This document shows positions 17,812 through 64,000 of a stretch of 64,000 nucleotides of DNA, piece by piece. This DNA comes from Cymodocea nodosa (taxonomy: Eukaryota > Streptophyta > Magnoliopsida > Alismatales > Cymodoceaceae). A model generated the notes under the pieces. It had not been told where the DNA came from and did not search any database. It saw nothing but the letters and a program-made list of their open reading frames with translations. Each line of letters begins with the position of its first letter. Position 1 is the stretch's first letter. The stretch is from positions 12,048,001 to 12,112,000 of the forward strand of contig CM072343.1 in NCBI GenBank assembly GCA_036874045.1, written 5' to 3'. Made by a program: the position numbers and the translations under genes.

Positions 17812-17813
17812 CT

Positions 17814-19455: not shown

Positions 19456-19460
19456 GTTCT

Positions 19461-21328: not shown

Positions 21329-21403
21329 CGTGGAATTACACAACGGAACGGAATCGCTCTGATCTCTACTGTTCTAAGTTCTAAATGATTCTGTGGATAA
21401 TGC

Positions 21404-21433: not shown

Positions 21434-21604
21434 CCTATGTTTAGGTGGGTAATCGAGTCACTTTCCACGCAAAACTCTCGCTCTCTCATCCATCGAATTA
21501 CGGTTAACTCCACAGACTAACCACGGACTTAGTCCATGGACTTAACTACAGTACTCTATTGAGTTAGAGTTAACTCAACGGGGTAAGTTCGTTAACTTAT
21601 CCTA

Positions 21605-21631
21605 CACTCAACAGAGTAAGTTCGTTGAGTT
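21605..21631. repeat. 27-bp boundary palindrome upstream of ORF2
   Basis: Arms CACTCAACAGAGT and AGTTCGTTGAGTT around one central A. Several further CGTTGAGTTA / GACTTAGTCC half-sites lie at 21500-21600. Confidence 0.65.
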
Positions 21632-25785: not shown

Positions 25786-26721
25786 TTATTTTCCAGGAAA
25801 TGTTTGTTGTAATCTTTTAGGATAGGGTGCTAATAATTGTGATTTCAAAGATTCTTTTTCTTTCATTTGATTTGTTTGATCATTTTTAGTCTCATTTGCA
25901 GATTCAGATTTTTCTTCATTGATTTCTATATTTTCAGATATTACATTTTCATTATCATTTTGGTTTTTGTTCTTATCCATCTTCATATTATTTTTGTTTT
26001 GAATTCTTGATGGTATATCAGTTCCAGATCTTAATGTTATACATACATCTTCTAGATTTTCATTACTTTCTTGATGTTCTTATATATGATTTTCGTGATT
26101 ATGATCTTCAACTGTTTTTAGTCTTAAATTGCACTCTTTAAATTTTCTTGCATTGGTATTTTCTTTTATTTGTATGTCTTGTAAATTATGCAATTTTATA
26201 ACATTATAATTTTCATTTGTGTTGTCCTGTTGCATAACTTGTAATTTCATTGTATATTCGTCTAATGCTTTTAGTTTTCTTTCCAAATCATCTAATCTCA
26301 TTGCATTCAATTTTTGATCAATTTTCATTATGGTTTTTTCAGTTTCATAAATGATATCAATTTTAGGTTCTGAATATAATACCTTATAGTTTAATTGGTT
26401 AACTTCTTGTTGTTGACACATAAATTGTTCCAGTTTGTCCATGTTTTGCTCTATACTACGCTCTAGTTTGTCAAACCTATCCCAAACTTCCTTGTCTCTC
26501 AACATGTTACACATTCTAAGCTAACCATTAGTTGGGTAAACCATAGGATTCTCATACTCAGATCTATTATAGTGAAGATAATTCATTTGTTGTTCATGTG
26601 ATCTAACCATCTGCAATCATTTCAGTTTCAAACAATCAGAAATGTCATGACCTTTCAAATTGTAGATTTCACATATGCTAACTACAGGTTTCAGAAATCT
26701 TTGAGCATAAGCATATGCCAT
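25786..26721 (-). pseudogene. Athila G1 gag-like ORF: defective zinc knuckle and coiled coil
   Basis: First ORF after the PBS, ATG at 26721 (MAYAYAQRFLKPVVSICEIY). The CCHC motif reads CEIYNLKGHDISDC, so the second Cys is Tyr; G3 has the same change (CEFYNSEGHNISDC), hence it predates both. Then come about 140 residues of coiled coil (WDRFDKLERSIEQNMDKLEQ and further heptads) and an acidic linker leading into LLAPYPKRLQQTFPGK, the usual Athila gag-PR junction. The gag core domain normally at the N-terminus is absent here; a gag core lies instead at 4938. Stops near 26620 and 26518 interrupt it. Confidence 0.75.
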
Positions 26722-26800: not shown

Positions 26801-26894
26801 TCTTCGGTAATGGCGCTAGAAAAACTTGTTCGGTTGCTTTAGGTAGCACTAGAGAACTTGCTTGGCTCTCTGATGACACCAAATAACTTATATT
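26801..26894 (-). promoter_or_regulatory. Triplicated primer-binding-site-like array of Athila G1
   Basis: Between LTR and first ORF, three consecutive units each have an AAGTT-T-T spacer and a TGGYGCC-like core: TTGGTGTCATCAGAG (26882-26868), TAGTGCTACCTAAAG (26851-26837) and TAGCGCCATTACCG (26818-26805), 30 and 33 bp apart. The last is nearest to the tRNA-Asp-type PBS (TGGCGCCGTTGCC) of Athila. Confidence 0.7.
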
Positions 26895-27152
26895 TGTTAA
26901 CTTCTATTTTAACTTGGTTAATTTGTCTTTATGCTTATATCAATAATTTCTTTTTAGAAGTAAACAAACAACCTTTCACACAAAATAGATATTAAGTCCA
27001 ATTTGTATTTTAACTGCAAGTGCATAGTGTATAATGTATTTGTATGCAAGTACAAGTCAATTCCATAGAGAATTGATGTAAGAATTGTGTACTATTTCGT
27101 TTTTTTATATTATACTTAATGTGTTTAGTAATTACTTCGTTGAGTTACAGTT

Positions 27153-27179
27153 AACACAACGAACTAAGTTCGTGGAGTT
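27153..27179. repeat. 27-bp palindrome in Athila G1 LTR
   Basis: Arms AACACAACGAACT and AGTTCGTGGAGTT around one central A. Its counterpart in the G2 LTR is 56900-56926. Confidence 0.7.
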
Positions 27180-28121
27180 ATGGCTAACTCAACAGACTAA
27201 TCTCATGGACTTAAGTTAACTCCACGAGCCTATCTTTCCAATTTAATATTACTATTTACAAAGGAATTCGGCCAACCATTGGGTGGTTCTACAAATTGTA
27301 AATAACATCAATTAAGCTCTTCAATGCTAGTTAATATTAGATTTATCATTAAGCAACACTAACATTCAAATATTTCAAATAGTAACCATTAAAAGCTTGA
27401 AGTACCTAGAACAAATCAATTTCAATAAATTGTAATACTATTTTCTATTTTCTGAATCAAACAAACATAAAACATTCACAATACTGACAATGATAACTTT
27501 AATCACGATACAAAACAAACAATACAACACTTAAATACTAAATATAAACATAGATAAGTTGTTGTTTTTGGTATTTTTGTTTTAAGATGTTAATGAAAAT
27601 GGGCGAAAGGTGAAATGTAAAAATCTCTATCGATAGTAAATACTTTTGTCACTACATGCTACACGATTACACCACTGAAAACTTAATCACTTACAATTCT
27701 GACTCATCTCCCTATAGAATCGCGAGTCTAGAATTGCAAGATGATCTCCTCTTCAACATATTGGCATCAACCCGAAACTAAGGCTAGAAGCTTTACGATC
27801 TCATGAGATATGAGTCGGTGCTTGGTGAAAATGGCTTCCCTTCCTGTGATGCGATCACTTATCACAGTGGTTGTCAAGCAGTGTGTTTGGCTCAGAATCA
27901 ACCTGACATCAGGAAAGTATCCTCACAAACCTCTGATGGTTGGTGATTACGGTAATGTTGGTGATGTTGGTGAATTGTTGGTGAATTGTTGGTGATAGTG
28001 TGGATGCTTCAGTGATCTTCCGACATTGTTTGCAGTTAGCGCGGTCCTCCACCTTTACACACACTGCCACACACCTCCAACCACACCTTCAACCACACCT
28101 TCTTCGTTTTTTCTCCTCTTC

Positions 28122-28129
28122 TTTTATAT
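28122..28129 (-). promoter_or_regulatory. TATA box of Athila G1 LTR
   Basis: Coding strand ATATAAAAGAAGAGGAG; the same box is at 56031-56038. Confidence 0.65.
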
Positions 28130-28936
28130 TTCTTCAATAGTAATTGCTTCTACTTTAGATGATCGGTTGGATTTCCTTCATTCAAATCAACGATGGTGAT
28201 TTCTTCTCCCTTCCACGAGTGAATTCCTATGTGATACGTGCAATCATGGTTTTCCTTCGAATGACCTATTTCTATAACCGCTATAGTGGCATATTAGAAA
28301 TTAAATGGTCCATGGAGTTACAGATAACTCAACGGACTTACTTCATTGATTTAACTATAAAACACGTGCACTAAAGAAATAAGCTACTAACATAACGCGT
28401 TACCTTAGTGTGTATTCATATAACTCAACGCGTATAGTTATGCTAACTTAACGAGTTAAACATGTGCATCTCACGTGATATACTAAAGCATTTAAATTCA
28501 ACACGTGCATAATTCTAACTTAACAAGTTCAAATATTTTAGACACTTACAAACCTAACTATCTGATGCCTAGATGCATTTCGGATAGTTAATAGATAACT
28601 TACCGAAAATCCACTTAAGTCATGCATTATGGTTTCAATACATGTACTTCAAGAAATAATAAAATATTCTTAAAACATAACTGTCCGGTACATTAAAAAT
28701 AACCCTCCAAAATAACAGAAAATTCAGATACTTAAGAATTTCATAGCCTACAATTTACCGACAGTTTAGACATATACTAAATTAACATTAATTCCCTAAA
28801 ATTATGCAGATTCTTTCATTAAAGCATATAACAGTGCAAGTATAACATAATGGCTTAATTCTCATATGATAAGCTAAATATTATGCAATTAACCATCATT
28901 TAACCGTTAATATTATGCACTTTTTCATTCTAAACA

Positions 28937-35223: not shown

Positions 35224-36689
35224 ATACAAACAAAAGAAAATACCAATGCAATAGAACTTAAAGAATGCAATTTAAGACTAAAAATAGTTGAAGATCATAA
35301 TCATGAAAATGAAATACAAGAACATCATGAAAGTATTGAAAATCTAGAAGATGTATGCATAACATTAAGATCTAGAACTGATATACCACCAAGAATTCAA
35401 AAAGAAAATAATATGAAGGTGGATAAGAACAAAAATCAAAATGATAATGAAAATGTAATATCTAAAAACATAGAAATCAATGAAGAAAAATCTAAATCTT
35501 AAAATGAGACTAAAAATGATCAAACAAATCTAATGAAAGAAAAATAATCTTTTAAATCACAATTATTAGCACCCTATCCTAAAAGATTACAACAAACATT
35601 TCCTGAAAAAAAAGAAAAAATTAGAGAAATTTTTGAAAAAGTACAAGTTAACATTCCTCTATTAGACTTATTGCAGAAAATGCCACCTTGTGCTAAATTT
35701 CTTAAGGATTAGTGTACAAAGAAAAGAGAGCGAAAAGTATTAAGGAAAGTCTTTTTAGCTGAGCAAAGTAGTTCCCTATTTCTGCCACAAATTCCTAAAA
35801 AGTTATCTGATCCTAGAATTCCTGTTATATCATGCACCATAGGAAATACCATTCTAGAAAGAACCTTAACAGACCTAGGTGCAAGTATAAATGTTATGCC
35901 AAGTGATATATTTGCATCCTTAGAATTAGAAGGCTTAATCCCTACTGGGACTGTTATTCAATTAGTTGATAGAAGTATAAGATACCCTAGAGAAAAAATA
36001 GAGGATGTCTTAATTAAAATCAAAAACTTCATATATCCTATTGATATTGTAATTTTGTATTCCCAACAAATTAAGCATAAAAATCGTGATACATCTTTAA
36101 TCCTGGGAAGACCATTTTTAGCAACATCAAGGGCTGTTATAAATTGTAAAACTGGAGTAATGAAGTTAGTATATGGTAATGAGGATACTCAATTAAACAT
36201 TTTCAAACCAGCAAAGTTTGAGGAGTTAGAAATGTCCTTACATACTATAGACTTTTTAGAGGATGAAGGAGATATGCTAGATGATGTGGTTCAAGAAGAA
36301 TTAAATAGGCAACTCAATTCTGAAAATTTAGAAGAAAGTGAAAGCATAAATATAGAAGGAGATCAAGAAGAGATTAATATAGAAAATGATGATGTTCAAT
36401 TAGGAGCTTCTGAAGGGCAACATTTAGAATTAAAACCTTTACCTCCTAAATTAACTTATATATTTCTAGAAGAAAAACAAACATGTCCAATTATTATTGC
36501 TTCAGATTTAAAAGAGGATCAAATTGCTAAATTGAAAGATGTAGTAAAAACTTATAAAGAAGCAATAGGATGGATTATGGCTAATATAAAAGGGTTAAGT
36601 GCAACTTTATGCTGTCACCACATATATTTAGAAGAGAATGTTAAACCAGTTAGAATTCCTGAGAGAAGATTAAATCCAAACCTTAAAGA
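35224..36689 (+). pseudogene. pol: Athila G2 gag-like C-terminus, protease and RT start
   Basis: Starts inside the coiled-coil linker after the Sire C LTR. Protease near 35860-36200 has an intact TDLGASINVMP active site and LILGRPFLATSRAVI flap region. It continues through the acidic spacer into the RT N-terminus (VRIPERRLNPNLKEVV), where Sire B interrupts it. Stops occur near 35500, 35546 and 35710. The last five bases (AGTAG) are duplicated after Sire B, and coding resumes at 45978. Confidence 0.9.
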
Positions 36690-36694
36690 AGTAG

Positions 36695-45972: not shown

Positions 45973-45977
45973 AGTAG

Positions 45978-47048
45978 TTAGGAAGGAAATAGTGAAATGA
46001 TTAGATAATGTCATAATTTATCCGATTTCTAATAGCTCATGAGTTAGTCCAATCCATGTAGTTCTCAAGAAATTAGGATTAATAGTTATTAGGAATGAAA
46101 GTTAGGACTTGATACCTACTAGAATTCAATCAGGCTGGAGAGTGTGTATAGACTATAGAAAGCTGAATGTTGTGACTAGGAAAAATCATTTTCCCTTACC
46201 TTTTATAGATCAAATGCTAGAGAAATTAGTAGGGCAAGAATATTTTTGTTTCGTAGATGGGTATTCAAGATATAAACAAGTTCCAATAGCATTAGAGTAT
46301 TAAGAGAAAACAACTTTCACTTGTCCTAATGGAACTTATCCTTTTAAGAGAATGCCATTTGGATTACGCAATGCACTAGCCACCTTTCAAAGATGTATGT
46401 AGGGCATATTCACTAGAATGACTGAAGATTTTTTAGAAATATTTATGGATGATTTTACTGTTTATGGAACTTCATATGAAGTGTGTTTAAACAATTTAGA
46501 TCAAATATTAAAATGCTATGTGGAAAAAGGTCTGGTTCTAAATTTGGAAAAATGTCACTTCATGGTTAAACAAGGAATAGTCTTGGGACATGTTTTAGAA
46601 AAAGGGTTGGAAGTAGATGAAGCTAAAATAGAAGTAATTTCTAATCTACCAGAACCTAAATCAATAAAAGATATTAGATCATTTCTAGGACATTCTGGAT
46701 TTTATAGAAGATTTATTAAAGACTTGCAAAATAGCTGACCTTTAACTAATCTATTAAAAGATGTCTCATTCAACTTCGATAAAAATTGCAAAGAAGCATT
46801 TTTCAAGCTTAAAATTAGCTTAATTTCAACTCCTATAATACAAGCACCTGATTGGAGTTGTCCATTTGAATTAATGTGTGATGCATCTAATTTTGATATA
46901 GGAGTAGTGTTGAGACAGAAGATAGACCAATCTCCTAGAGTGATTCATTATGCAAGTAAAACTTTAAACGATGCTCAAGTTAATTACATAACTACTAAAA
47001 AAGAGCTGTTAGTTGTTGTGTTTGCCTTAGAAAAGTTTAGATCATATC
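45978..47048 (+). pseudogene. pol: Athila G2 RT and RNase H (truncated)
   Basis: Continues pol after Sire B. RT has the intact catalytic box EIFMDDFTVYG near 46440 and thumb-region [18 protein letters not shown]. RNase H begins with [10 protein letters not shown] and ends at [10 protein letters not shown], where a Sire A LTR starts at 47049; the remaining RNase H and all integrase are gone. Stops are near 45996, 46300 and 46400, and a small frame change occurs near 46725. Confidence 0.9.
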
Positions 47049-48632
47049 TGTAGGATCGTATGGCAACACAAGAGGAGGGGTGAATTGTGTATTTTTAATA
47101 TTTTCTAAAATATAATTGAAACTTTAAAACTCAAAAACAAGTCGAGACATTGTTTTCATAAAATCATTTTTATTCAAGGTTTCAATTACAATATATAATT
47201 CAATTTTCCTTAGAAATTGTAGATGCAATTATAACTCGATATCATGTATCATCTAAACAATTTCATAACTACAAACAGAGAAAACTAATTTGCAGAATTT
47301 AAAACATTTCTCCCTATTTAAGATCTTTCTTCTTCTTCTTTTTCTTCTATAGCAATTCTTCAATGATGAATATCATGTCTTTCTCTACTTCACCAAATTT
47401 GCTTTCTTTTGATACTTTAAATCTTCAATCACATAAATAATACCTTGTTCTGCTTTACTGAATTTTCTTCCACCTAATACTTCAAATCGTCAACGACATA
47501 AATTTAACCTTTTCTACTTCACTGAATTTTCTTCCACCTAAGAGATTTTCCCCGAAGAGGTGTTTTTGATCCTTGAAAAAGATTTTTCTTTTGGTGTGTA
47601 GGGATAGTTTGATCAACGAGAATTCTATGCCTTTCAAACTGTATCTTCATTTCATGCATATCCTTCACGTTTAATCACTACCAGTTTTCCACTTCTCCAC
47701 GTCTTTTCTTTTTCCTTCATCGAAACACACACATTTTGACCCACATTTATATTTTGAATTTTCTTTAATCATCAATCTTGGATCTCTAAAAAATTTCCTA
47801 CAAAATAAACTTTCTCGTCCAAAGAATTTTCCATCAAGTGTAATAATAAGTCGTTACTTTAATGTTAACTAAACGAGTAACACAAGTATATATAACTTAA
47901 CGTTTCTAACTTAACAAGTTTCTCATGTGCCATTTCACGTGACAATTACTGTAGCTAACTCAACGAACTAAGTTTGTGGTGTTATGCTAACTCAACGAAC
48001 CAGCTTAACCTTTCTTTCGGAAGGTTAAACGATAATTCACCGAAAACAATTTAAGTTTCGGATAGTTACGGTTGTAAGTCACCGAAAAACTCTTTATACC
48101 ATAAAACTAGTGAGACACGTGTCAAGACTTGAAAACATTACTTAAGTTACCTTTCAGATAGTTACGACTGTAAGTCTCCGAAAAAACTTTAACTCACCGA
48201 TTCAGTAATAAATAAATGTTTTTATAATAAGAATTTTACCACATGCAAAAATAACAACTTAAGTTTATAATGCTAACATAACGTGCGAAAAACTCTTTAT
48301 ACCATAAAACTAGTGAGACATGTGTCAAGACCTGAAAACATGACTTAAGTTACCTTTCGAATAGTTACGATTGCAACTCTCTGAAAAAACTTTAACTCAC
48401 CAATTCAATAATAAACAAATGTTTTTATAATAAGAATTTTACCACGTGCAAAAATAACAACTTAAGTTTATAACGTTAACATAACGCGTTGCCTTAGTGT
48501 TCAATATAGCAACTCAACGCATTTAGTTATGTTAACTTAACCAGTTAAACATGTGCACCTCACGTGATATAATACAACATTCGTAACTTATAATTTCACC
48601 ACGTGTATAATACTAACTTAACAAGTTCATCA
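47049..48632 (-). repeat. Sire A LTR, variant 2, truncated at one end
   Basis: Starts TGTAGGATCGTATGG; the other end (last ~400 bp including TGTTGAG) is missing, and it is joined to the spacer upstream of Athila ORF2. It carries an extra TTTCGGATAGTTAC-rich segment absent from the LTRs at 6270 and 17814, duplicated in tandem. Confidence 0.82.
48083..48487. repeat. 203-bp tandem duplication inside Sire A variant LTR
   Basis: Two copies begin CGAAAAACTCTTTATACCAT at 48083 and 48286 and run through to TTTATAA-GCTAACATAACG. The single-copy version is at 50085-50285. Confidence 0.8.
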
Positions 48633-48692
48633 CAGTTAACTGTGACTTAACGAATTTACCCCATTGAGTAAACTCAACGAAGTACTGTAGTT

Positions 48693-48719
48693 AAGTCCAC
48701 AAACTAAGTCCGTGGAGTT
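48693..48719. repeat. 27-bp boundary palindrome upstream of G2 ORF2
   Basis: AAGTCCACAAACT and AGTCCGTGGAGTT around one central A; a partly decayed copy. Confidence 0.5.
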
Positions 48720-48801
48720 AACCGTAACTCCATAGAGAACTAAGTGAGAATGCAAGAGTTTTACGTGCAAAATGACCTGATTACCCGTTTAAACCTAGGG
48801 C

Positions 48802-48811
48802 TTATTTATAC
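48802..48811 (+). promoter_or_regulatory. TATA-like box upstream of G2 ORF2
   Basis: TTATTTATAC about 100 bp before the ATG at 48910, with AAACCTAGGG just upstream and AAACTTAGGTTTT just downstream. Conserved with 21404-21433. Confidence 0.45.
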
Positions 48812-48909
48812 TAAACTTAGGTTTTGTGGGCATTATCTATAGAATCATTTAGAACTTAGAACAATAGAGATTAGAGCGATTCCATTCCGTTCCATTTTGT
48901 AACTCCACG

Positions 48910-49244
48910 ATGAGAAAGTTGGCACCCGAGTTCTAGGAGGAAGCAGTTGACATGTCAGAATTTCTTAAAGATTCGGAAGAATAGCACACGAGGCAAAAGA
49001 TCATAAATACAACATGAGAAAAAGATCTACAAAAGGTAAAAGCTAACCTTTTCTACTAGAGGAAAGTGTTAGTGGATTTAGGTATACAAATACCTTAGAT
49101 TATGAAAACAAGAATCAAAGTAGCTACAGAAGTTGCATTAAATAGAGAGAAAAATTAGGCCAAATAATGAAGTTGCCTTAGAATTGATCCAACGTAAGTC
49201 CTGACTCTGGTTCAAAACACGCATAGGTAGATGGGCTTAGCGGG
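48910..49244 (+). pseudogene. Athila G2 ORF2, N-terminal part
   Basis: MRKLAPEF at 48910, then SEFLKDSEE and RIKVATEVALNREK, matching the translation from 21328 in G1 (SEFLKESEE, RIKVATEITVNREK). Multiple stops. Interrupted by a Sire A LTR at 49245. Confidence 0.65.
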
Positions 49245-50834
49245 TGTAGGATCGTATGGCTACACAAGAGGGGGGTGAATTGTGTTTTTCAATATTTTCG
49301 AATATAATTGAAACTTTAAAACTCAAAAACAAGTCAAGACACTATTTTCATAAAATCATTTTTATTCAAGGTTTCAATTACAATATACAATTCAATTCTC
49401 CTTAGAAATTGTAGATGCAATTATATCTCGATACCATGTATCATCTAAATAATTTTATAACTACAAATAGAGAAAACTAATTTACGAAATTTAAAACATT
49501 TCTCCTTGTTTGAGATCTTTCTTCTTCTTCTTCTTTCTTCTTCAGCAATTCTTCAGTGATGAACATCTTGCCTTTTTATGCTTCATCGAATTTGCTTTCT
49601 TCTGATACTTCAAATCTTCAGTGACAAAAATCTTACCTTTTTATGCTTCACTGAATTTTCTTCCACTTGAGAGTTTTTCCCAAAGAGGTGTTTTTGATCC
49701 CTAAAAAGATTTTTCTTTTGGTGTGTAGGGATAGTTTGATCCTTGAAAAGATTTTTCTTTTTGTGTGCAAGGATAATTTGATCAATGAGAACTCTATGCC
49801 TTTTATACTATATCTTCATTTCATACATATCCTCCACATTTAATCACTACCAGTTTTCCACTTCTCCACGTCTTTTCTTTTTCCTTCATCGAAACACACA
49901 CGTTCTGACCCACATTTATATTTCAAATTTTCTTTAGTCATCAGTCTTAGATCTCTGAAAAATTTCCTACAAAATAAACTTTCTTGTCCAAAAATTATCA
50001 TTAGTGTAATAAGAAGTCCTTTCGGAAGGTTAAATGCTAACTCACCGAAAATAGTTTAAGTTTCGGATAGTTACTGTTGTAAGTCTCTGAAAACTCTTTT
50101 TACCATAAAACTAGTGAGACACGTGTCATGACCTGAAACCATGACTTAAGTTACCTTTCGGATAGTTATGACTGTAAGTCTCCAAAAAACTTTAACTCAC
50201 CAATTCAGTAATAAATAAATGTTTTTATAATAAGAATTTTACCACGTGCAAAAATAACAACTTAAGTTTATAACACGAACCTAACGCGTTGCCTTAGTGT
50301 TCAATATAGCAACTCAACGCGTTTAGTTATGCTAACTTAATGAGTTAAACATGTGCACCTCACGTGATACAATATAACATTCGTAACTTATAATTTCACC
50401 ACGTATATAACACTAACTTAACGAGTTCGTCTCTTCTTTTACACACTAACTTAACGAGTTCTCACATGACCTATTTTAACCTTTAAGCCTTTAACTTAAC
50501 GAGTTCTCACGTGACCTCTATACAAATAACACTCTAACTTAATGAGTTGTCTAAACGTGCACTGTTCATGATACAGAAGATATAACTTTAAAACATATCA
50601 TGCTTTTCAATAAAAACACATGTTAACTTAACGTTTAGTTAAATGAGAAATTAATGCAATGAAACTAATAGTTATTAACTTAGTATAATTTTAGATCCAA
50701 TACAGATAAGTATTTATGTCAGTAAGCTTTTTCTGTATTAATTGATGATTTTCATTTCTTTTCACAAACAATAGTAATTGAGCAAATATGATTATTTTCA
50801 TTCAGCACACATCATCAAAACAATAAACTCAACA
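49245..50834 (-). mobile_element. Sire A solo LTR, variant 2
   Basis: Complete LTR from TGTAGGATCG to AAACTCAACA. Flanking fives GCGGG (left) and GTAGG (right) could be a duplication separated by two transitions. Contains the 42-bp doublet (49696, 49738), the shared U3 cassette (50275-50430) and one copy of the TTTCGGATAGTTAC segment (50020-50220). Confidence 0.9.
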
Positions 50835-51118
50835 GTAGGGAATCTGGGAGCAACAAAGGAAAGGAAATGAAGAACAGGCAACTGAAGAACAACAAAAGGA
50901 ACTGACTGCTGAAAGACCTGTCCCTGAGGAACAATAGCCTAGACCTTCAGTTCCACCACCAAGGCCGTTAGAAAGAGCAGCATTTTTGGGGCCTTCTACT
51001 AAGGAAGAATTAAGAGAATTTCAAGAACTGGTTCAAGTTGGAAAAGACCAAGGAGAACCAAAAGATTTGGTAGTAGCTATAGCACAATTGGTGTTTGATG
51101 CATGTCGCAAAAAGAGGG
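50835..51118 (+). pseudogene. Athila G2 ORF2, middle fragment
   Basis: Resumes after the solo LTR; GPSTKEELREFQELVQVGKD and AIAQLVFDACRKKR match G1 (GPSTKEERGEFQELVQIGKD). It stops abruptly at 51118, where gag sequence begins, so the acidic middle and the C-terminal domain of ORF2 plus the gag start were deleted. Confidence 0.7.
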
Positions 51119-52066
51119 TTGCATATCCCTTTTGCTTTAAAAGACAACTAAGAGATGGTTATATACTCTATCGCCTGATTCAATTTCTGCATGGACTGAA
51201 TTTTGCTCTATTTTTCTGAAAAAATATTATCCAACTCATCAAATGATTAAAAAGAAAAAGGAAATATTAATGTGTAGCCAAAAATAGGGAGAATCATTTT
51301 GGAAATATTTTGAAAGATTTAAAGATTTACTGACTCAATGTCCACATCATGCAATGAGTAAAGCACAATTAATAGGTATAATTTATGAAGGCATAGATGT
51401 TTCAACGAAATCTTTATTAGAATCTACTTGTCAGAATGGATTTTTAAAACTGTGTAATGAAGAAGCATGGGCATATTTAGAAAACTTTGTAAAAGAACTA
51501 CATAGTGGGAAAACTCAACTGAAGCTATTACAGGTAAAAGAATATTGCCAAGGGGAATGCATGAAATAGATTCAAGCACTATGCTTGAAGTTAAATTAAC
51601 TGAATTAACAAAGAAAATAGAAGAGTTATCATTAAATCAAAAGCTAGCAAAAAAGAATGTAAAGGTTAATGACTTAAATATTATTTATGCTAGAAACCAA
51701 AAAGATAACTTTAGAAATTCTTATAACCCTAATTGGAGAAATTATCTAAATTTATCTTGGAGAAACAACAATTTCCAGGGAGGAGAAAATATAAATGATA
51801 AAAATATAAGTTATAAAGCATTAATTGAGCAAGGATCTAGAATAGAGAAATTAGAAAAGATAATCCAACAATTAAATAATCGTTTAAATCTTGTATTTGG
51901 AAATGCTGCCAGTCAAAATCAAAATATTAATAGAAATATACCTCCTAGACAGAAGGAATCAATAGAAGTTAGACCTATGGGAGGATTGCCAATGCAAGCA
52001 GTACTTAACCCTATCAACAGAATTGTCAATGAAATTGATACCTCCTATAGGAGGGAAGCTGAATGA
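51119..52066 (+). pseudogene. Athila G2 gag core, N-terminally deleted
   Basis: Enters the gag domain at the equivalent of 4530 in G1 (the YIPFALKD region) and continues through the ESFWKYFERFKDL, AMSKAQLIGIIYEGIDVS and SYNPNWRNYLNLSWRNN segments to a stop at 52066. The last 173 residues (51545-52066) are open, so this copy shows the true C-terminus, NEIDTSYRREAE, that the solo LTR splits in G1. A frame change near 51170 and stops near 51285 and 51569 are present. Confidence 0.8.
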
Positions 52067-52302: not shown

Positions 52303-53441
52303 ATGGAATTGATGAAATTACCACTAGATGCACTGAGGGAAGTACTGAGTAACTTGTCAGCTAAAGATCTATGTAGATTGTGTTGTGTATCAAAGGAAAT
52401 CAAAGACTGTGTCAGAGAAAAATATTTTCATGGACTACAAGTTGTAAAAATGACTAAGATTAGAGATGAATTTTTATGGAAGTCATTTAATCGTAGTTCA
52501 ATCAGCTATGAATATCTGAATATGGAAGAAACTACTGGAATTCCACCCAATACATTAGAAGGAATATATCATATTATGGGGATAAATGAAGGATTAATTA
52601 TTTACAGATCCAAACCAAGGTATGCAATTCTGTTACCCGATATTTTGATTAGAAATCTTATCACAAGAGAAGAATGGAATATAGGAAGGCCTAATAGATT
52701 TGAAGTTCCAACTGAAAATTGTAGGTCAGCTTTAATCTTTTCTGATAAAAATTCAACCATTCCTGAAAAATTATATTATTGGAGACCAACTAGAAATTGG
52801 GATGAATATTTATGCTTAAGTGTGTATAATTTTCTAAATAGATCTTGGACTGAAAATACTATGATATATTTAGGACAGAAAGCATTAATTAACAACATAC
52901 ATGTTATACTTGATGGATATATATATCTAGTCTCAGATATATCAGTTGCATTTAGATCTAATTTATACATAGTAAGCATAGACAGTTGTGATGATGATTT
53001 TGTAGAAATATTACCTATACCTAGTAATATAGCTAAACCACCGTCTGTAAAATATGATAAAATTCAATTAGGAATGTGGTATAATGAATATGATGATCCT
53101 ACTTTATGTCTGATAAGATGGTGGGATGAATTGAGGAAATTTCAAATATGGATTATGAAAGACCTAAATGAATGGAAGTGGGAACAGGAATATATTGAAA
53201 TAGATGTAGAAATAGAAACAGTTACATTATCTTAGAACAGAAACGGATCCCTTTCTGCATTTCATTTCATTAAAGTAATACACTTATATTTAGTATTGAT
53301 AACATACTACAAGTTTACAAGCTAAAAAGGAAAATGGACTGCATTAAAACAGAATTAATAGCAAGAAGAATTATGACTAGAAAGTTTGCATGAATTGACA
53401 CATTTATTCCATTTGTTACTACTTTTCAATCATGTTCTTAA
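52303..53441 (+). pseudogene. F-box protein ORF carried by Athila G2 (C-terminally disabled)
   Basis: The best-preserved F-box copy: open from the ATG at 52303 for 310 residues to a Trp-to-TAG stop at 53233, then one more frame change near 53270 before the family stop at 53439-53441. Residues 5-45 are the F-box (LPLDALREVLSNLSAKDL, RLCCVSKEIKDCVREKYF). The remaining sequence has scattered Trp, Tyr and IYLVSD/LYIVS-type beta strands suggesting a beta-propeller-like substrate domain, which I infer and cannot prove. Roughly nine in ten residues match G1 over the first 96. It is preceded by the gag core and followed by the PPT-like tract, so it travels with the element. An upstream in-frame ATG at 52249 also exists but is not supported by G1. 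Confidence 0.85.
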
Positions 53442-53895
53442 ACTGTGATTTTGTACTTTTAATGTTGTGTATTTTGCATTTATTTAAAAACAAAAAAAAA
53501 ACAAAATATCAATCTAGTTTGTTGGTATTTGTTATGGGAAACCAACTGGCTTGCTTGTGAGCCACCAAAGGCATAAGAGCCTGACTTCCACACAAGACAC
53601 TAATTTAACAAGTTATGTTTTGTTATTTTGTTATATATTCTGCTTTTCTTTGTGAATGAAAAGTTTTTCAGAATAAAAAATCGAAAGATATAGAAGGAGA
53701 TACAAAAGAACAATATATGTAATTGATTACTTATCTTGAATTTACATTTAAACTCAATTTGCAGAGTTATTTAATAACTTAACGAATTAAGTTCATTGAG
53801 TTAGGTGCTAAGTCAAAAAAACAATATTCATGTCTGCTACAATTACTGTATTTACTGTAAAATCTTTTACATTGAGGACAATGCAAAATGTAGGT
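53442..53895 (+). other. 3' noncoding stretch between F-box and first PPT in G2
   Basis: No ORF. Matches 299-740 of G1. Contains one 27-bp palindrome and the GAGGACAATG word that precedes Athila PPTs. Confidence 0.6.
53776..53802. repeat. 27-bp boundary palindrome downstream of F-box in G2
   Basis: Arms AACTTAACGAATT and AGTTCATTGAGTT around a central A, with paired changes in places. Confidence 0.7.
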
Positions 53896-53910
53896 ATGGG
53901 GGGGGGAGGT
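53896..53910 (+). promoter_or_regulatory. First PPT-like tract of G2
   Basis: TATGGGGGGGGGAGG after TGAGGACAATGCAAAATG, 1.3 kb before the LTR. Confidence 0.6.
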
Positions 53911-54239
53911 AATTAAAGTAACAACCATGTAATTTTGTTAATTAGAGGAATTAGAATGGTACTGCAAAAGTTTTGTGAAAATTGAAAATTTTTTATGAAT
54001 TTGCTATAACTATTAGATAATTGAAACTGTAAAATTTTTAAGAACTGTAACTGCTTGAATGTTAGATTGAAAATCTTATATAAGATGCTACAAAATTTTA
54101 CTATTTGTACAAATCTAGATATAGTATCTTATGTTTTTGTTGAATTTTATGAGTTTAACAGTTTCACGATTTTAAGAAGAAATTAGAATATTTAATTGAA
54201 ACTCAGTAAATTATTTGAAATCCTGAACGAGCTGAAATG

Positions 54240-55203
54240 TTGATTTTTAGCCTAAATGAAATACATATGATCAAGGATACATTTAATTTGATTGATTAAA
54301 CTTGTAGAATGATTTATGTGTAGATCTTATTAAACTATAGAAAAAGTATGAGCTTATTGATATGGATTCATATTTTCAGTAAATAATAGAAGCAAGATTA
54401 TATGAGATTTGTGTCTTATTGCATTTGTATTAATGAAATACGTATATATACTGTGTTGAAAAAAAAAAAAAGAGAGAAAAACTTTAAGAGTTTATTGACT
54501 TGTTTGATCACGAGCCTTGTGTACTTGAGCAGATAGGTATGTAAGGATTGTTGACTTGAAAAAAGACTCTTTAAATCTGGTAACCTAAGATCCTAATCAG
54601 ATCTGGGATTGTTAACTAAAAGCTCGATACATGGGTACACTAGAAAGCTCTTGTATGATTCAAGCTTTTCAAATTAACTTTTAAAGTACAAATATGCATA
54701 TATTGTTCTGAAAAGATAAAAGTGTTTTGTGAAATACAGATATCTTTTAAATCGAGTATATTTTCTGTTATCTAAGATTATTGAAGTATGAATCTAGAAT
54801 AGACTTTTGAAGTTGTTTATTTGAGATACAATTCTTTATTCTATTTGTTTTAATCATATTGAATTGGATTGTATTTTGATTCGTATGTAGTTGAAATTTA
54901 TTCTGAAAATCATATTGGAAAATTCAGGATAACAGAGGCTGAAAAGAAGAAAAAATGATAATATAATTAACACCTATATGATGCTGATATATTTTGTATG
55001 TAATTTACATATGTTTTAAATATATTTGCAAATTGAAGAGGAGAAAACAATGTTAAAATAGATTACTGAAAAATACAGAATATCTATATAGTAATCTAAA
55101 TTTATGTATTCTCAAGAAGAACAAAATGAAGAATTAATTCCAGCAACTTTAGAAAGACCAACTAGTTAGATCTTAGTTTGCAAAGGGACTAGCAAAATTT
55201 AAG
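54240..55203 (+). repeat. 3' noncoding module of Athila shared with Sire A
   Basis: Aligns with the coding strand of 12060-11185. Landmarks: GATTAAACTTGTAGAATGAT, TATGAGATTTGTGTCTTATT, TTTGATCACGAGCCTTGTG and GATTCAAGCTTTTCAAATT. No coding potential seen. Confidence 0.78.
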
Positions 55204-55214
55204 TATGGGGGAAG
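55204..55214 (+). promoter_or_regulatory. Polypurine tract adjacent to G2 3' LTR
   Basis: TATGGGGGAAG directly before the LTR start; preceded by AAAATTTAAG as usual in Athila. Confidence 0.8.
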
Positions 55215-56030
55215 TATTTAGAATGAAAAAGTGCATAATATTAACGGTTAAATGATGGTTAATTGCATAATATTTAGCTCATCATATAAGAATTAAGCCA
55301 TTATGTTGTAATTGCACTGTTATATGCTTTAATGAAAGAATCTCCATAATTTCAGGGAATTAACTTTAATTTAGTACATTTCTGAACTATCAATGAATTG
55401 CAGGCTTTGAAATTTCTAAGTATCCGAATTTTCTATATTTCAGAGAGTTATATTGCATGTACTGGACAATTATGTTTTTAACGATAGAAGAATATTTTAT
55501 TATTTCGTAGAATACACATGTTGAAACCTTAATGCATGACTTAAGTGGATTTTCAGTAAGTTATCTGCTAACTATCTGAAATGCATCTAGGCATCAGATA
55601 GTTAACGTTTCCTTTTTGTTGAAGAGTTATATTAAAAACTTGTATAGTTAAGTTATAATTATGCACGTGTTGAATGTAAATCACATGAGATGCACATGTT
55701 TAACTCGTTAAGTTAGCATAACTGTAGGCATTGAGTTACATGAATACACACTAAGGTAACGCGTTATGTTAGCAACTTATTTCTTTATTGCACGTGTTTT
55801 ATAGTTAAATCAACGAAGTAAGTCTGTTGAGTTGTCTGTAACTCCACAGACCATTTATTTTCTAATATGCCACTATAGTAGTTACAGAAACAGGACATTC
55901 GAAGAAAAACCATGATTGCACGTATCACGTAGGAATTCACTCGTGGAATGGAGAAGAAATTACTATTGTTGATATGAATGAAGGAAATCTAACTGATCAT
56001 CTAAGTAGAAGCAATTACTACAAGAAGAAA

Positions 56031-56038
56031 TATAAAAG
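56031..56038 (+). promoter_or_regulatory. TATA box of Athila G2 LTR
   Basis: GAAATATAAAAGAAGAGGAG; matches the G1 LTR box. Confidence 0.65.
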
Positions 56039-56899
56039 AAGAGGAGAAAGATGAAGAAGGTGTGTGTGTAGAGGTGGAGGACCGCACTAACTACAGGTAG
56101 CATTGGAAGTTCCCTGAAGCTCCACACCACCACCAAAATCAGCAACAATCGAAGGTCTGTGAGGATACTTTCCTGATATCGGGTCGATTCTAAGCCAAAC
56201 TAGGTGACTGACAACCACTGTGAGGAGTGATCGCGTCGCGGGAAGGGAAGCCATTTTCACCAAGCACCGACTCATATCTCAAGAGATCGTAAAGCTCTAG
56301 CCTTAGTTTCGGGTTGATGCCAGTATGTTGAAGAGGAGATCATCTTGCAATTCTGGACTCAAGATTCTATAGGGAGAGGGGGTAGGATTGTAAGTGATTA
56401 AGTTTTCAGTGGTGTAATCGTGTCACATGTAGTGATGGAAGTTTTTACTATCGATAGAGATTTTTACATTTCACTTTCCATCCATCTTTAGGAACATATC
56501 AAAACAAAAATACCAAAAACAACAACTTATCTGTGTTTACATTTAGTATTTAAGTGTTGTATTGTTTGTTTTGTATCGTGATTAATGTTATAATTATTAG
56601 TATTATGAATGTTTTATGTTCGTTTGATTCAGAAAATAGAAAATAATTTTACAATTTACTGAAATTGATTCGTTCTAGATACCTAAAGATTTTAATGGTT
56701 ACTGTTTGAAATATTTGAATGTTAGTGTTGCTTAATGATAAATCTCATATTAACTAACATTAAAGAGATTAATTGATATTATTTACAATCTGTGGAATCG
56801 CCCAATGGTTGGCCGAATTCCACTGTAAATAGTAGTATTTCACTAGAAAGATAGGCTCATGGAGTTAAGTCCACAAGGTTAGTCCGTTGAGTTAGCCAT

Positions 56900-56926
56900 A
56901 ACTCCACGAACTTAGTCCGTTGTGTT
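56900..56926. repeat. 27-bp palindrome in Athila G2 LTR
   Basis: Arms AACTCCACGAACT and AGTCCGTTGTGTT around one central T. Confidence 0.7.
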
Positions 56927-57202
56927 AACTGTAACTCAACAGAGTGCTTACTAAACACATATACTCTAATATAAAAATCGAAACAGTACACAATTCTTAC
57001 TCAATCTCTATGGGATCGACCTGTACTTGCACACAAATACAATATACACTGTGCACTTGCAGTTAAAATATAAATTAGAATTAATATCTAATATGTGTGA
57101 AAGGCTGTTTGTTTACTTCTAAAAGTAATTATTGATATAGCCATAAAGACAAATTAAAACAAGTAAAAATAGAAGTAACAAACATCAATACAAGCAATTT
57201 TT

Positions 57203-58398: not shown

Positions 58399-59911
58399 TC
58401 ACAAGCCTTGTTGTCTTCGAAAAATATTGATTAGAGTATCTGAAATTTGCCTTGCAATTTCTATACTTACCCTGTTTATCTGATCAATTACTACTTGATC
58501 TAAATCATTTTGTGAAACTTATGATGGTTGCTGTAAAAATTCAATATTTATGTCTGTATTTAAATCTGTATGTATATTTGTATTTATACCTATATTTGTA
58601 TCTGTATGTTGCTGTTGTTCTTAAAACTATGTCGATTGTTGTTGTTGTTGTTGCTGTTGTGACTGAGTTTGCTAATCCTGTTGTTGTTGTTGTTGTCGAA
58701 TTACAAGTGCATCTACTTCCTAGTATTTCTGTAGTTCCTTTGTAGAGAAAGATCTTAACTTTAATCTTTTTTGTGGCCAAAGTGTAACATCTGTTTGACT
58801 TGCCACAATTCTCAAAAGCGTATCACCATAAAATAATTTACTTTACAAATTTAAGATATGAGAAACAAAAATATCATACCAGTTCACCTGTATATGGTTA
58901 ATTAATGCATATGTAGCATAAAAACAGCATCTGCCAACTTCTACCCCATGATCAAACCTCTAAAAGAGTGAAGCATGCAGTATTTTTGTAATAAAATGTG
59001 CTTGGCCATTTAAATCATTTAGTAATCTCATTGGATTGTTGGTAGTCGGATCTTTGGCTAAACTTTTAATGTCTCATCCCAACTAATAAACCTATTTTCT
59101 TTCTGATAATTTAACTCCTTCATTTTTTAGACCAAGTACTTGATAAAGTAATTCTGGAGTTAAATATATATCGTAGTCTTGTATATTGGAAACAAGAATA
59201 CCTTCTTCCACTATTAAGTTTGAGTAAAAATAACTTATAAGTTTTGGTATAACAAAATGGCCTGGCTGTTGTGGAAGTAGAGTCAACAAGCCTTGAAATT
59301 CAAACATTTCTCATATATGCGCCATCCCTTCAAACTTAAATGGTCTTGAATATAAAACTGTAAAAGTTTTATATGTCTGAAATTTTTCATAACAAGAGTT
59401 ATTTCTGAACCATAACAATGTATTGTCATCTAAATTCTGTTTAGGATTAGGTAATTTCATGTCATGATGTTCTAATTTGGGACTTGTTTCAATATTATCA
59501 GTAGTATCTATATTTTTAGATCTTTCAGAACTAGTGGAATTTCTATCAAAGCTAGTATAAATGTCTGAAATATCTGCTATTGTCGTATCAATAATCTGTT
59601 GAAATTCCTCTATTTGATCGTCTTGAAACATATCAGTAGCAACAATCTCTGTATTAATCTGTCAATTAGCAACATTTATCTCTATGATTGATCTATACAA
59701 CTGTCTCTGTATGAAAGAATGTTCTTTAATAGAGTCATTCTGTATTTCTAAAATTTCTATATTTGAGACATTGGTAGTGTTATATTCTATTTGTAACTGT
59801 GTAGTTGTTGATTATATACATTTATCAACAAATATGTTGTATACTGTAATAGACATAACCATATGTATAAACTGTAGTATAAGAACCTATACCAAAAATC
59901 AAAAGTCTCTA
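58399..59911 (-). pseudogene. Sire B copy 3 ORF2, C-terminal part
   Basis: Matches 38177-39700: DISDIYTSFDRNSTSSERSK, MFEFQGLLTLLPQ, YLTPELLYQVLGLKNEGVKL, polyglutamine and the terminal QQGL with TGA at 58399. Several stops. Cut at 59911 by the G3 LTR, so the N-terminal half is missing. Confidence 0.72.
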
Positions 59912-60855
59912 TTTAGAATGAAAAAGTGCATAATATTAACGGTTAAATGATGGTTAATTGCATAATATTTAGCTTATCATATGAGAATTAAGCCATTTTG
60001 TTATAATTGCACTGTTATATGCGTTCATGAAAGAATCTGTTTACTCGCGATTCTATAGGGAGAGGAGACAAAATTGTAAGTGGTTTAATTTTCAGTGGTG
60101 TAATCGCGTCGCATGTAGTGACGGAAATATTTACTGTCGACTGAGATTACTTTACATTTCACCTTTCGCCCATTTTCATGCTCATATCAAAACAAAAATA
60201 CCAAAAACAACTTATCTGTGTTTATATTTTGTATTTGGGTATTGTATTGTTTGTTTTGTATCGTGATTAATGTTATCTTTGTCAAAGTTGTGATTGTTTT
60301 ATGTTTGTTTTAGTTTTACAGTTTACTAAAATTGGTTCGTTTAATAGACTTAAAGATTTTAATGGTTAGTGTTTGAATTATCTGAATGTTAGTATTGCCT
60401 AATGATAAATCCAGTGTTTACTAACATTAAAGAGCTTAATTGATGTTATTTATAATCAGTTGAACAACCCAATGGTTGGTCGAATTTCTCTGTAAATAGT
60501 AGTATTAAATAGGAAAGACAGACTCATGGAGTTAACTTAAGTCCATGAGGTTAGTTCGTTGAGTTAGCCATAACTCAACGGACTAAGTTCGTTGAGTTAA
60601 CTGTAACTCAATGGAGAGCTTATTGAATATATAAATTTGATTGTTAAAAATGAAACAATTCACAATTCTTAAGCAATTCCCTGTGGGATTGACCTGTACT
60701 TGCACACTAATACAATAGACACTGTGCACTTGTAGTTAAAATACAAATTGGAATTAATATGTAATTTGTGTGGAAGGTTGTTTGTTTACTTCTAAAAAGG
60801 AATTCAGTGATATAGGCATAAAGATAAATTAAGTAAATAAAAACAGAAGTTAACA
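59912..60855 (+). repeat. Athila G3 5' LTR with ~1-kb internal deletion
   Basis: Starts TATTTAGAATGAAAAAGTG and ends GTTAACA. After 126 bp of U3 it jumps near 60038 to the equivalent of 56358, losing the U3 cassette and the TATA box. Palindrome at 60572-60598. Confidence 0.85.
60572..60598. repeat. 27-bp palindrome in Athila G3 LTR
   Basis: Same arms as 1964-1990 (AACTCAACGGACT, AGTTCGTTGAGTT, central A); identical over all 27 bases. Confidence 0.85.
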
Positions 60856-60861
60856 AATCCA

Positions 60862-60955
60862 AGTTTTTTTGGCACGTTGCTAGGTAACCAACCAAGTTTT
60901 CTGGTGCCGTGCTGGAGATCCAAACAAGTTTTCTGGCGCCATTGCTAGGGAATTC
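60862..60955 (+). promoter_or_regulatory. Triplicated primer-binding-site-like array of Athila G3
   Basis: Cores TGGCACGTTGCTAGG (60870), TGGTGCCGTGCTGGAG (60902) and TGGCGCCATTGCTAGGG (60934), exactly 32 bp apart, each preceded by AAGTTTT-T/C. The third best fits the Athila tRNA-Asp-type PBS. Confidence 0.72.
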
Positions 60956-61027
60956 ATATAAGCAACTGTTAGAGCTATTTCATTTTAATAGCTAGAGTGT
61001 TGTGTGTTTTCTTCTGTAATTGAGAAT

Positions 61028-61190
61028 ATGGCATATGCTTATGCTCAAAGATCCCTGAAACCTGTAGTTAGCATATGTGAATTCTACAATTCTGAAGGAC
61101 ACAACATTTCTGACTGTTTGAAACTGAGACGTTTGTAGATGGCTAGATCTCATGAACAACAAATGAATTATCCTCAATATATTGAGGGGA
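61028..61190 (+). pseudogene. Athila G3 gag-like ORF, truncated
   Basis: MAYAYAQRSLKPVVSICEFY start as in G1; knuckle CEFYNSEGHNISDC lacks the second Cys; a stop follows DCLKLRRL. Internal deletion near 61190 removes the coiled coil and the protease active site. Confidence 0.7.
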
Positions 61191-61214
61191 TTATCCTCAA
61201 TATATTATCCCCTG
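61167..61214. repeat. Palindromic duplication at a deletion junction
   Basis: The perfect palindrome CCTCAATATATTGAGG (61172-61187) is followed by a second ATTATCCTCAATATATTAT, then pol sequence. It looks like filler DNA made by template switching at the deletion. Confidence 0.6.
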
Positions 61215-61215
61215 A

Positions 61216-64000
61216 TTAGAAGGCTTAACTCCTACTAGTACCATTATTCAATTAGCTGATAGAAGTATAAGATACCCTAGAGGAAAAATAGATGATGTCT
61301 TAATTAAAATCAAAAACTTTATATATCCTATTGATATTGCAATTTTGGATTCCCAACAAATTAAGCATAAAAATAGTGATACATCTTTAATTTTGGGAAG
61401 GCCATTTTTAGCAACATCAAGGGTTGTTATAAATTGTAAAACTGGAGTAATGAAGTTAGCATATGGCAATGAGGATACTCAATTAAACATTTTCAAACCA
61501 GAAAGGTTTGAGGAGTTAGAAATGTCCTTACATACCATAGACTTTTTAGAGGATGAAGGAGATATGTTAGATGATGTGATTCAATAAGAATTAAATAGGC
61601 AAATCAATTCTGAAACTTTAGAGGAAAGTGAAAGCATAAATATAGAAGGAGATCTGGAAGAAATTAATTTAGAAAATGATGATGTTCAATTAGGAGCTCT
61701 AGCTTCTGATGGGCAACATTTAGAATTAAAACCTTTACCTCTTGAATTAACCTATATATTTCTGAAAGAGAAACGAACCTGTCCAATCATTATTGCTTCA
61801 TATTTAAAAGAGCATCAAATAGCTAAATTAAAAGATGTAGTGAAAAGTTATAAAGAAGCAATAGGATGGACTATGATTGATATAAAAGGATTAAGTTCAA
61901 CTTTATGCTGTCACCACATATATTTAGAACAAAATGCTAAACCTGTTAGAATTCCTGAGAGGAGATTAAATCCAAACCTTAAAGAAGTAGTCAAGAAGGA
62001 AATAATTAAATGGTTAGATAATGATATAATTTATCCGATTTCTTATAGCTCGTGGGTTAGTCCAATCCATGTAGTTCCCAAGAAATCAAGATTAACAGTT
62101 ATTAGGAATGAAAGTCAAGACTTGATACCTACTAGAATTCAATCAGGCTAGAGAGTATGTATAGACTATAGAAAGTTGAATGCTATGACCAGGAAAGATC
62201 ATTTTCCTTTACCTTTTATAGATCAAATGCTGGAAAGATTAGCAGAGCAAGAATATTTTTGTTTCCTAGACAGGTATTCAAGATATAACCAAATTCCAGT
62301 AGCATTAGAGGATCAAGAGAAAACAACTTTCACCTGTCCTAATGGAACTTATGCTTTTAAGAGAATGCCATTCGAATTATGCAATACACCAGCCACCTTT
62401 CAAAGGTCTATGTAAGGCATATTTACTGGAATGACTGATGATTTCCTAGAAATATTTATGGATGATTTTATTGTTTATGGCAATTCATATGAAGTTTGTT
62501 TAAAAAATTTAGACCAAATATTAAAACGCTGTGTGGAAAAAAATCTGGTTCTAAATTGGGAAAAATGTCACTTCATGGTTAAACAAGGAATAGTCTTAGG
62601 GCATGTTGTTTCAAAGAAAGGGTTGGAAGTAGATAAAGCTAAAATAGAAGTAATTTCTAATCTACCAGAACCTAAATCAGTAAAAGATATTAGATCATTT
62701 CTAGGACATGTTGGTTTTTATAGAAGATTTATTAAAGACTTTAGCAAAATAGCTAGACCTTTAACTAATCTATTAAAAGATGTCCCATTTAACTTTGATA
62801 AAAATTGTAAGGAAGCATTTTTCAGACTTAAAACTAGCTTAATTTCAACTCCTATAATTCAAGCACTTGATTGGAGTCATACATTTGAATTAATGTGTGA
62901 TGCATCTGATTTTGCTGTAGGAGCAATGTTGGGACAAAAGATAGAAAAATCTCCTAGAGTGATTCATTATGCAAGCACAACCTTAAATGATGCTCAAGTT
63001 AATTACACAACTACTGAAAAAGAACTATTAGCTGTTGTGTTTGCCTTGGAAAAGTTTAGATCGTATTTGATTGGAGCTAAAGTAATAGTATACACGGATC
63101 ATGTAGCTTTAAAACACCTAATAGCAAAAAAAGAAACTAAGACTAGATTGTTCCGATGGATATTATTATTACAAGAATTTGATCTAGAAATTAAAGATAA
63201 AAAAGGTTGTGAGAATGTAGTAGTAGATCATTTATCAAGATTACAAATAGAAAAATCAAATATTGAAATTAAGGATAATTTTCTTGATGTACAATTAATG
63301 ACTATCAACACAATACCTTGGTATGCAAACATAGTTAATTACTTAGTTACTGGTTTAACACCTAAGGATTGGAATAGACAGGATAAGAAATTGTTTTTCT
63401 CAAGAGTAAAATATTACTATTGGGAAGACCCATACTTATTTAAGAAATGTCCTGATCTGGCTTTAAGGAGGTGTGTTCCAGAAATTGAATATCAGAGCAT
63501 ATTGTCTTTCTGTCATGACCAAGCTTGTGGAGGGTATTTTGGCTCAAGGAAAACTGCTGCAAAAATTCTGTAATGTGGATTTTATTGGCCAACACTATTC
63601 AAAGATGCTCATAAATATTGTTTAAGTTGTTTAAGATGTCAACAAATAGGAAGAATATCAAAGAGGAATATGATGCCTCTTAATCCTATTGTTGAGGTTG
63701 AAATCTTTGATGTGTGGGGAATAGATTTTATGGGTCCATTTCCTATGTCTAATCAATTTAATTACATATTGTTAGGGGTGGATTATGTATCTAAATGGAT
63801 AGAAGCTATTCCTACAAAAACTAATGACAACAAAGTGGTAATACAATTTATAAGAACCAATATATTTACTAGATTTGGAATACCTAAAGCTATTATCAGT
63901 GATAGAGGAACTCATTTCTATAATAGAAGTTTTGAAGCCTTAATGAAGAAATATGGAGTAAACCACAAAATTGCAACATCATATCATCCGCAAACAAGTG
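61216..64000 (+). pseudogene. pol: Athila G3 pol: PR remainder, RT, RNase H, INT (partial)
   Basis: One frame from 61216 to the window end, broken only by four stops: 61585 (Glu codon to TAA), 62149 (Trp to TAG), 62413 and 63571 (Gln to TAA). Protease keeps ILGRPFLATSR but has lost the DLGAS active site to the deletion. RT has [11 protein letters not shown] (near 62450) and [18 protein letters not shown]; RNase H has [15 protein letters not shown] and VYTDHV. Integrase begins after [16 protein letters not shown], where the usual second zinc-ligand His is Tyr, and runs through CLRCQQIG, WGIDFMGPF and SDRGTHFYNR to the window edge. It is the most complete Athila RT-RH-INT here. Confidence 0.92.

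Follow-up and report, generated by a model that had tools for sequence, protein, structure and literature searches.

The stretch of Cymodocea nodosa DNA analysed here (contig CM072343.1, positions 12,048,001 to 12,112,000; hereafter the window) is 64 kb long and consists of nested plant long terminal repeat (LTR) retroelements. Self-comparison of the window has revealed three members of one Ty3/gypsy family (copies A, B, and C), together with a fourth member represented by an LTR fragment alone, near 31483 on the minus strand. An F-box gene is present as an extra open reading frame (ORF) at the same place in both of the copies whose 3' half lies inside the window, A and B; copy C ends before that point. 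In each case the F-box frame lies between the gag core and one shared purine tract, with colinear flanks on both sides, as the first-pass annotation had claimed for the copies at 52303-53441 (plus strand) and 741-1877 (minus strand). The two genes have diverged from each other about as much as gag and pol, a pattern that leans towards a host-type gene turned accessory gene of this Athila-like family.

The F-box gene

The F-box frames of copies A and B are arranged as follows:

52303..53232, plus strand, copy A, 310 open codons, F-box in codons 4-42, TAG at 53233
53233..53441, plus strand, copy A, decayed 3' end with a stop and a 1-nt shift near 53273
741..1877, minus strand, copy B, 5 in-frame stops relative to codons 1-310 of A, last 103 codons (1052-741) open

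Over 1136 aligned sites the two copies show 86 differences (92.4% identity), and the alignment includes two indels (3 and 1 nt). The F-box domain PF00646 has been found with Pfam in both, with E 6.1e-11 in A (42.2 bits) and E 1.3e-10 in the first 96 codons of B (41.1 bits), above the curated cut-off of 20.5. The C-terminal rest of A matches TIGR01640 (E 6e-7, 29 bits, under the cut-off of 37.9) and the F-box-associated family PF07734 (E 0.012, 15.9 bits, under the cut-off of 21.1). The P0 family of poleroviruses was not found for either copy among Pfam matches at E up to 1. In 2000 mononucleotide shuffles the longest open run was 110 codons, well short of the 310 in A but not exceeded by the longest run in B, 105 codons. 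Over codons 1-310 of A, copy B has no frameshift, one in-frame 3-nt gap, and its five stops in 308 gap-free codons, three of them on tryptophan codons of A. The F-box ORF of the first-pass annotation is real as an open frame in A, but both copies are broken within the 1139 nt.

A model of the 60-residue F-box is helical, as expected (pLDDT 66), and the solved structures closest to it, with weak scores, are of F-box proteins complexed with SKP1; the single-sequence model of the 310 amino acids (pLDDT 38.7) was useless. When sequences of solved structures were searched, the 60 residues matched F-box only protein 4 alone (E 0.3), and the 310 residues gave two unrelated matches alone (E 0.61 and 1.6). 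In a collection of 5.8 billion proteins, apparently poor in plants, no homologue of the F-box protein was found at E 0.001 or at E 10 (444 candidates each), a negative that carries little weight because the gag control matched only 3 proteins. Searches of viral contigs (1 pattern stretch) and of bacterial and archaeal contigs (13 stretches), collections that also appear plant-poor, confirmed no F-box match, and the single stretch found for gag in the viral contigs was likewise not confirmed.

Position of gag and layout of the family

The order in copy A (35224-57184, plus strand) is protease-reverse transcriptase (pro-RT) start, nested copia, RT-RNase H (RH), copia LTR, ORF3 pieces, gag, F-box, 3' region, polypurine tract (PPT), and LTR. 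Its features, other than the F-box frame, are:

35224..36694, plus strand, end of the gag-pro linker, protease, and RT start (self-comparison, tblastn)
36695-45972, nested copia, directly after the RT start
45973..47048, plus strand, RT and RH, integrase lost
47049-48631, truncated copia LTR, after RT-RH
48632..51121, plus strand, ORF3 leader and N-terminal part, split by a copia LTR (49245-50834)
51122..52066, plus strand, gag core and C-terminal part, fused to ORF3 through a deletion at 51121/51122
about 53880..53915, plus strand, internal purine-rich tract, common to B (about 262-310, minus strand)
55195..55214, plus strand, PPT, abutting the LTR
55215..57184, plus strand, 3' LTR, followed by a site like a primer-binding site (PBS) at 57202-57219

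Copy B runs on the minus strand from its 5' LTR (28936-26891), extends past base 1, and carries 2 nested copia insertions:

26891..28936, minus strand, 5' LTR, inserted in a copia gag
26620..26721, minus strand, ATG and zinc-knuckle remnant right after the leader, without gag core; same in C at 61028-61129
22072..25665, minus strand, protease (PR), RT, RH, and integrase (IN), stops present
19456..21610, minus strand, ORF3 leader and ORF3, resuming at 6264-5930 past the nested copia
6270-19455, nested complete SIRE-like copia
3646..4941, minus strand, gag core and upstream ATG, PF03732 E 3e-19 in 4711-4229, frame disrupted, 3' end resuming below 2144
2144-3645, solo copia LTR in gag

Copy C is cut by the end of the window:

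59910..64000, plus strand, LTR (59910-60859), PBS-like sites, zinc-knuckle remnant, protease to integrase

The position of gag is the unusual feature of this family. With the gag core of B as tblastn query, matches in the window were obtained only in B and A, each time 3' of pol and ORF3, and none at the 5' end of B or C, the two copies with visible 5' ends. B and C share the same 5' start, that is, the LTR, PBS-like sites, ATG, and zinc-knuckle remnant; in C a deletion follows soon after the remnant, and the 5' end of A is outside the window. In B, taking out the nested copia leaves an ORF3 frame that continues through the join, interrupted by one stop ahead of it and by two beyond it (178-residue stretch), and this continuity ties the pol-ORF3 block to the gag-F-box block. 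The 981-nt interval between ORF3 and gag of B was searched for two PBS words (TGGCGCC and TGGCACC) and two purine words (GGGGG and GGGGA), none of which occurs there; its matches to the LTRs are short (at most 76 columns) and mostly across a repeated motif. Copy A has the same order as B, with the integrase and the ORF3-gag junction deleted. Short direct repeats, read by eye from the alignment, flank three of the nested insertions: GTTCT/GTTCT for the copia in B, AGTAG/AGTAG for the copia in A, and GTTCT/ATTCT for the solo LTR in B.

We read the family order, pieced together from partial copies since no single copy in the window is complete, as LTR, PBS, (zinc knuckle)-PR-RT-RH-IN, ORF3, gag, F-box, purine tract, 3' region, PPT, and LTR. 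The ORF3 of B weakly resembles PF20167 (Transposase_32-like, as in the extra ORF related to Athila ORF-1; E 2.4e-4, 21.5 bits against a cut-off of 45) at 19798-19592. Sites of the TGGCGCC type follow the LTR in C, and degraded versions of them occur in A and B; they may correspond to tRNA-Asp. A tRNA-Asp PBS is used in the Athila lineage (PMC1142308). The Athila polyprotein order GAG-PROT-RT-RH-INT (PMC6317226) is found here only in its PR-RT-RH-IN part. Because gag does not come first, the element is called Athila-like rather than Athila. The idea that an F-box travels as cargo of an Athila retrotransposon is kept in its first half, with the same place in two colinear copies and a divergence like that of gag and pol rather than of the LTR, and loosened in its second, gag lying 3' of pol and ORF3. 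As for the tract that had been described as PPT-like, it is common to A and B but internal, and the PPT of A is instead the second tract, abutting the LTR that starts at 55215.

Two further observations concern the ends of the elements. Up to three PBS-like repeats follow the LTR in B (26801-26890, minus strand) and C (60860-60951, plus strand), and one in A. A PBS-like site follows the right-hand LTR of A (55215-57219, plus strand), so that this LTR may once have been common to two elements in tandem.

Divergence and selection

Divergence between A and B is 0.076 in the F-box, 0.075 in gag, 0.073 in pro-RT, and 0.096 in RT-RH; the values for other regions are 0.120 (LTR), 0.164 (ORF3 leader), 0.149 (spacer), 0.096 (3' region), and 0.235 (N-terminal part of ORF3). 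When expected counts are taken from the LTR, with a separate rate for each methylation context, the F-box falls below them both in differences (86, 120.6 expected) and in transversions (22 in 1136 sites, 48.3 expected; P 4.4e-4), its transversion divergence being 1.9% versus 4.2% in the LTR. The same deficit of transversions is seen in pro-RT (30 vs. 62.4), RT-RH (21 vs. 45.7), and gag (8 vs. 37.8). There are two indels in the F-box frame versus nine in the 695-site 3' region. The comparison of synonymous and nonsynonymous changes, which the first-pass annotation had proposed, gives for the two copies 6 synonymous to 1 nonsynonymous in the PF00646 stretch, compared with 15 to 42 plus the 5 stops in codons 43-310 (Fisher P 0.004; permutation P 0.013). 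Permutation values near that of the F-box have been obtained for gag (0.62 and 0.68) and for A-B pol (0.73 and 0.75). To the extent that a pair of decaying copies allows a judgement, the F-box has been constrained between A and B about as much as the genes of the element itself. Its slow change, like that of the element genes, suggests that the element kept the gene for some use.

The N-terminal part of ORF3 (A 50837-51121, plus strand; B 21035-20751, minus strand) shows a 23.5% difference between A and B without indels, above the 12.0% of the LTR, and may be relaxed, fast-evolving, or recombinant.

Alternative explanations

The explanations considered here are not mutually exclusive. One alternative to a retained accessory gene is that a host F-box gene was caught by chance and multiplied without use to the element, as LTR elements are known to capture genes in this way (PMC7264820). 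Several results weigh against a retained gene. Only two F-box copies are available and both are broken. The whole-ORF permutation value of the F-box (0.72) is not significant (P 0.136), and the last 69 codons, at 1.57, give no sign of constraint. Pol comparisons with copy C (0.30-0.58) indicate stronger constraint than in the F-box, and the conservative nature of the amino-acid changes is marginal (P 0.052). The F-box Ka/Ks of 0.48 (0.29-0.87) has been demoted because wrong-frame controls give similar values (0.28 and 0.68). When the 3' region alone is taken as reference, the overall divergence of the F-box is not lower (P 0.14), and the transversion contrast becomes only marginal (P 0.033). 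The 60-residue model, moreover, found no structural match at E up to 0.001. Against a useless passenger stand the divergence and the transversions of the F-box, which match those of gag and pol, with transversions at half the LTR rate, and the 6 to 1 ratio in the F-box domain; on the basis of two copies, the divergence and the domain pattern favour a retained accessory gene, and we consider the passenger rather unlikely.

The remaining alternatives concern the locus, the element, and the target. A segmental duplication of a locus with a host F-box gene among retroelements would fit the finding of only two copies, on opposite strands of one 64-kb window; we judge it very unlikely, as the homology is that of one element from pol through the 3' region, the LTR-bounded insertions of the family lie in different surroundings, the nested insertions of A and B differ, and the pol genes are about equidistant (RT-RH: A-B 0.096, A-C 0.099; pro-IN: B-C 0.072). 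Alternatively, the unusual order could be a local accident rather than a family layout, in which a separate non-autonomous gag-F-box element of the LTR-gag type joined the 3' part of an element with pol and ORF3. In Arabidopsis, Athila elements that have gag alone, or gag with env, are common and recombine with families carrying pol (PMC2410132), copy A has a deletion at the ORF3-gag junction, and the window holds no complete copy. Such a chimera nevertheless seems improbable given that the order pol, ORF3, gag, F-box is common to A and B, that the ORF3-gag interval of B has none of the searched PBS or PPT words and only short, motif-like LTR matches, and that the gag core is found by tblastn only at the two 3' places, with a gag-less 5' end shared by B and C. 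Finally, and as a variant of the retained accessory gene, the F-box protein may act on the element itself, for instance in turning over its Gag or the product of ORF3, or on regulators of the host cell cycle; the gene adjoins gag in A and B, and the data point to no particular target, whereas precedents from plant viruses and transposons favour host defence targets. We regard this variant as possible, if somewhat doubtful.

Proposed mechanism

That the F-box is a host-type gene turned accessory gene of an Athila-like Ty3/gypsy family is, counted together with the mechanism proposed below, the explanation that we hold to be reasonably probable. We infer a capture of the gene from the host, its expression, binding to SKP1, a target, and a benefit to the element. 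Before the split of A and B, the family would have carried gag and the F-box 3' of pol and ORF3. This arrangement was probably assembled via recombination during reverse transcription, and the family with its reordered layout would then have multiplied. Recombination among Athila families, including gag-only and gag-env non-autonomous ones, has been documented (PMC2410132) and represents a possible route to the block structure seen here. The F-box protein would be made from the element transcript. An acceptor-like tract ends 11 nt upstream of the F-box ATG in both A and B, and it is the sole one in each spacer according to a crude rule; splicing to the F-box is only a suggestion, since the same rule also fires elsewhere, with five hits across 1977 nt of LTR and a single hit each in the 3' region (1769 nt), in the ORF3-gag interval, and between pol and ORF3. 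Once made, the protein would bind host SKP1/ASK through its F-box, and the F-box-associated-like part at its C terminus would recruit a protein to the SCF ubiquitin ligase.

The likeliest target would be a host factor limiting the element, although, if the gene was kept, the chance of a host antagonist is put at about one in three, and that of a silencing factor in particular is less. The P0 protein of poleroviruses acts on AGO1. A silencing factor is attractive as a target because the host F-box protein FBW2 targets AGO1 and the P0 proteins of poleroviruses are silencing suppressors (PMC9035678, PMC2914764, PMC8875975), and because VANC is an anti-silencing protein of plant transposons (PMC5735166, PMC10398659). 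A counter-defence role, as the first-pass annotation proposed, is a plausible hypothesis. The most far-reaching form of the proposal, a plant-element lineage with a split and reordered genome (the capsid gene behind pol and an env-like gene), whose 3' block keeps a captured F-box gene for breaking down a host factor of silencing or restriction via the ubiquitin system, seems to us unlikely as a whole. If the F-box works as an accessory gene, a plant LTR retrotransposon would, like some plant viruses, be making use of SCF ubiquitin ligases, and its F-box protein would offer a handle on host factors that restrain retrotransposons. If the order pol-ORF3-gag-F-box holds genome-wide, the gag-first layout of Ty3/gypsy elements would not be fixed; such families could have been missed, since a large survey dropped elements with unexpected domain order (PMC6317226).

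Possible sequence exchange and repeats in the window

Likeness between superfamilies has been also observed. About 1 kb of the 3' region of A (54077-55115, plus strand) shares 74% identity, both in sense orientation, with the part of the SIRE-like copia that sits between its pol and 3' ORF (12158-11115, minus strand), possibly reflecting a copia-gypsy exchange or an insertion in both. Another example is the gypsy ORF3 fragment at 19798-19592 (minus strand), with a protein identity of 44-45% to pieces of the 3' regions of two further copia elements and of 27% to a piece of the SIRE-like one (matching copia pieces at 59277-59101, 39052-38897, and 9159-8983, minus strand), a likeness that would be consistent with env-like ORFs shared across superfamilies. 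In addition, the motif TAACTCAACG and its reverse complement occur 24 times window-wide versus about 0.12 expected from base composition. LTRs of copia and gypsy elements alike contain the motif, and in copy B it also precedes ORF3, gag, and the F-box (e.g., 1963, 1982, 5305, 5384, 5455, 21571, and 21623).

Comparison with known systems

Extra and captured ORFs are known in plant LTR elements (PMC7264820), and a screen of 121 angiosperm genomes reported 15 uncommon domains in such elements (PMC9289625). The F-box is absent from the nine uncommon domains named in the text of that paper, whose full chart sits in its supplement, and the word "F-box" has no occurrence in the main texts of PMC9289625, PMC6317226, and PMC11963269. 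A literature search, with supplements and most subscription papers outside its range, returned neither an F-box as a conserved Athila gene nor a gag 3' of pol.

The closest relatives appear to be the Athila/Calypso/Diaspora lineage (PMC1142308, PMC2410132), with which the family shares the PR-RT-RH-IN order, a gag core of the PF03732 family, an ORF3 after pol, and possibly a tRNA-Asp-like PBS; it differs in having the gag core 3' of ORF3, not 5' of pol, and in the added F-box gene. With respect to the extra gene, orchid Ty3/gypsy elements with an AlkB-type RNA demethylase (PMC9289625) are likewise a plant family in which a gene of host type has become fixed as an additional ORF, and for which a role in countering host control has been proposed; however, that is another protein, documented by 38 and 23 consensus sequences in two species and an enzyme assay, whereas here there are two copies and sequence alone. 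The nearest precedent for the F-box itself is an "LTR-gene" reported in Thlaspi arvense (PMC8764390), where LTRs flank a member of the F-box family, although it was classed as a host gene (non-retrogene) and, in the part of the paper used, not given as a gene that an element family conserves. Polerovirus P0 and host FBW2 (PMC8875975, PMC9035678, PMC2914764) link F-box proteins to RNA silencing, but the protein described here has an F-box of the common PF00646 type, followed by a C-terminal part that is F-box-associated-like. If a counter-defence role is true, VANC of VANDAL DNA transposons (PMC5735166, PMC10398659) would be a parallel, as a plant transposon accessory gene countering host silencing; VANC is sequence-specific and comes from DNA transposons, whereas the F-box protein would work through ubiquitin ligases. 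In conclusion, the LTR element with an extra ORF is a known kind, of which the F-box element of C. nodosa appears to be a new variant.
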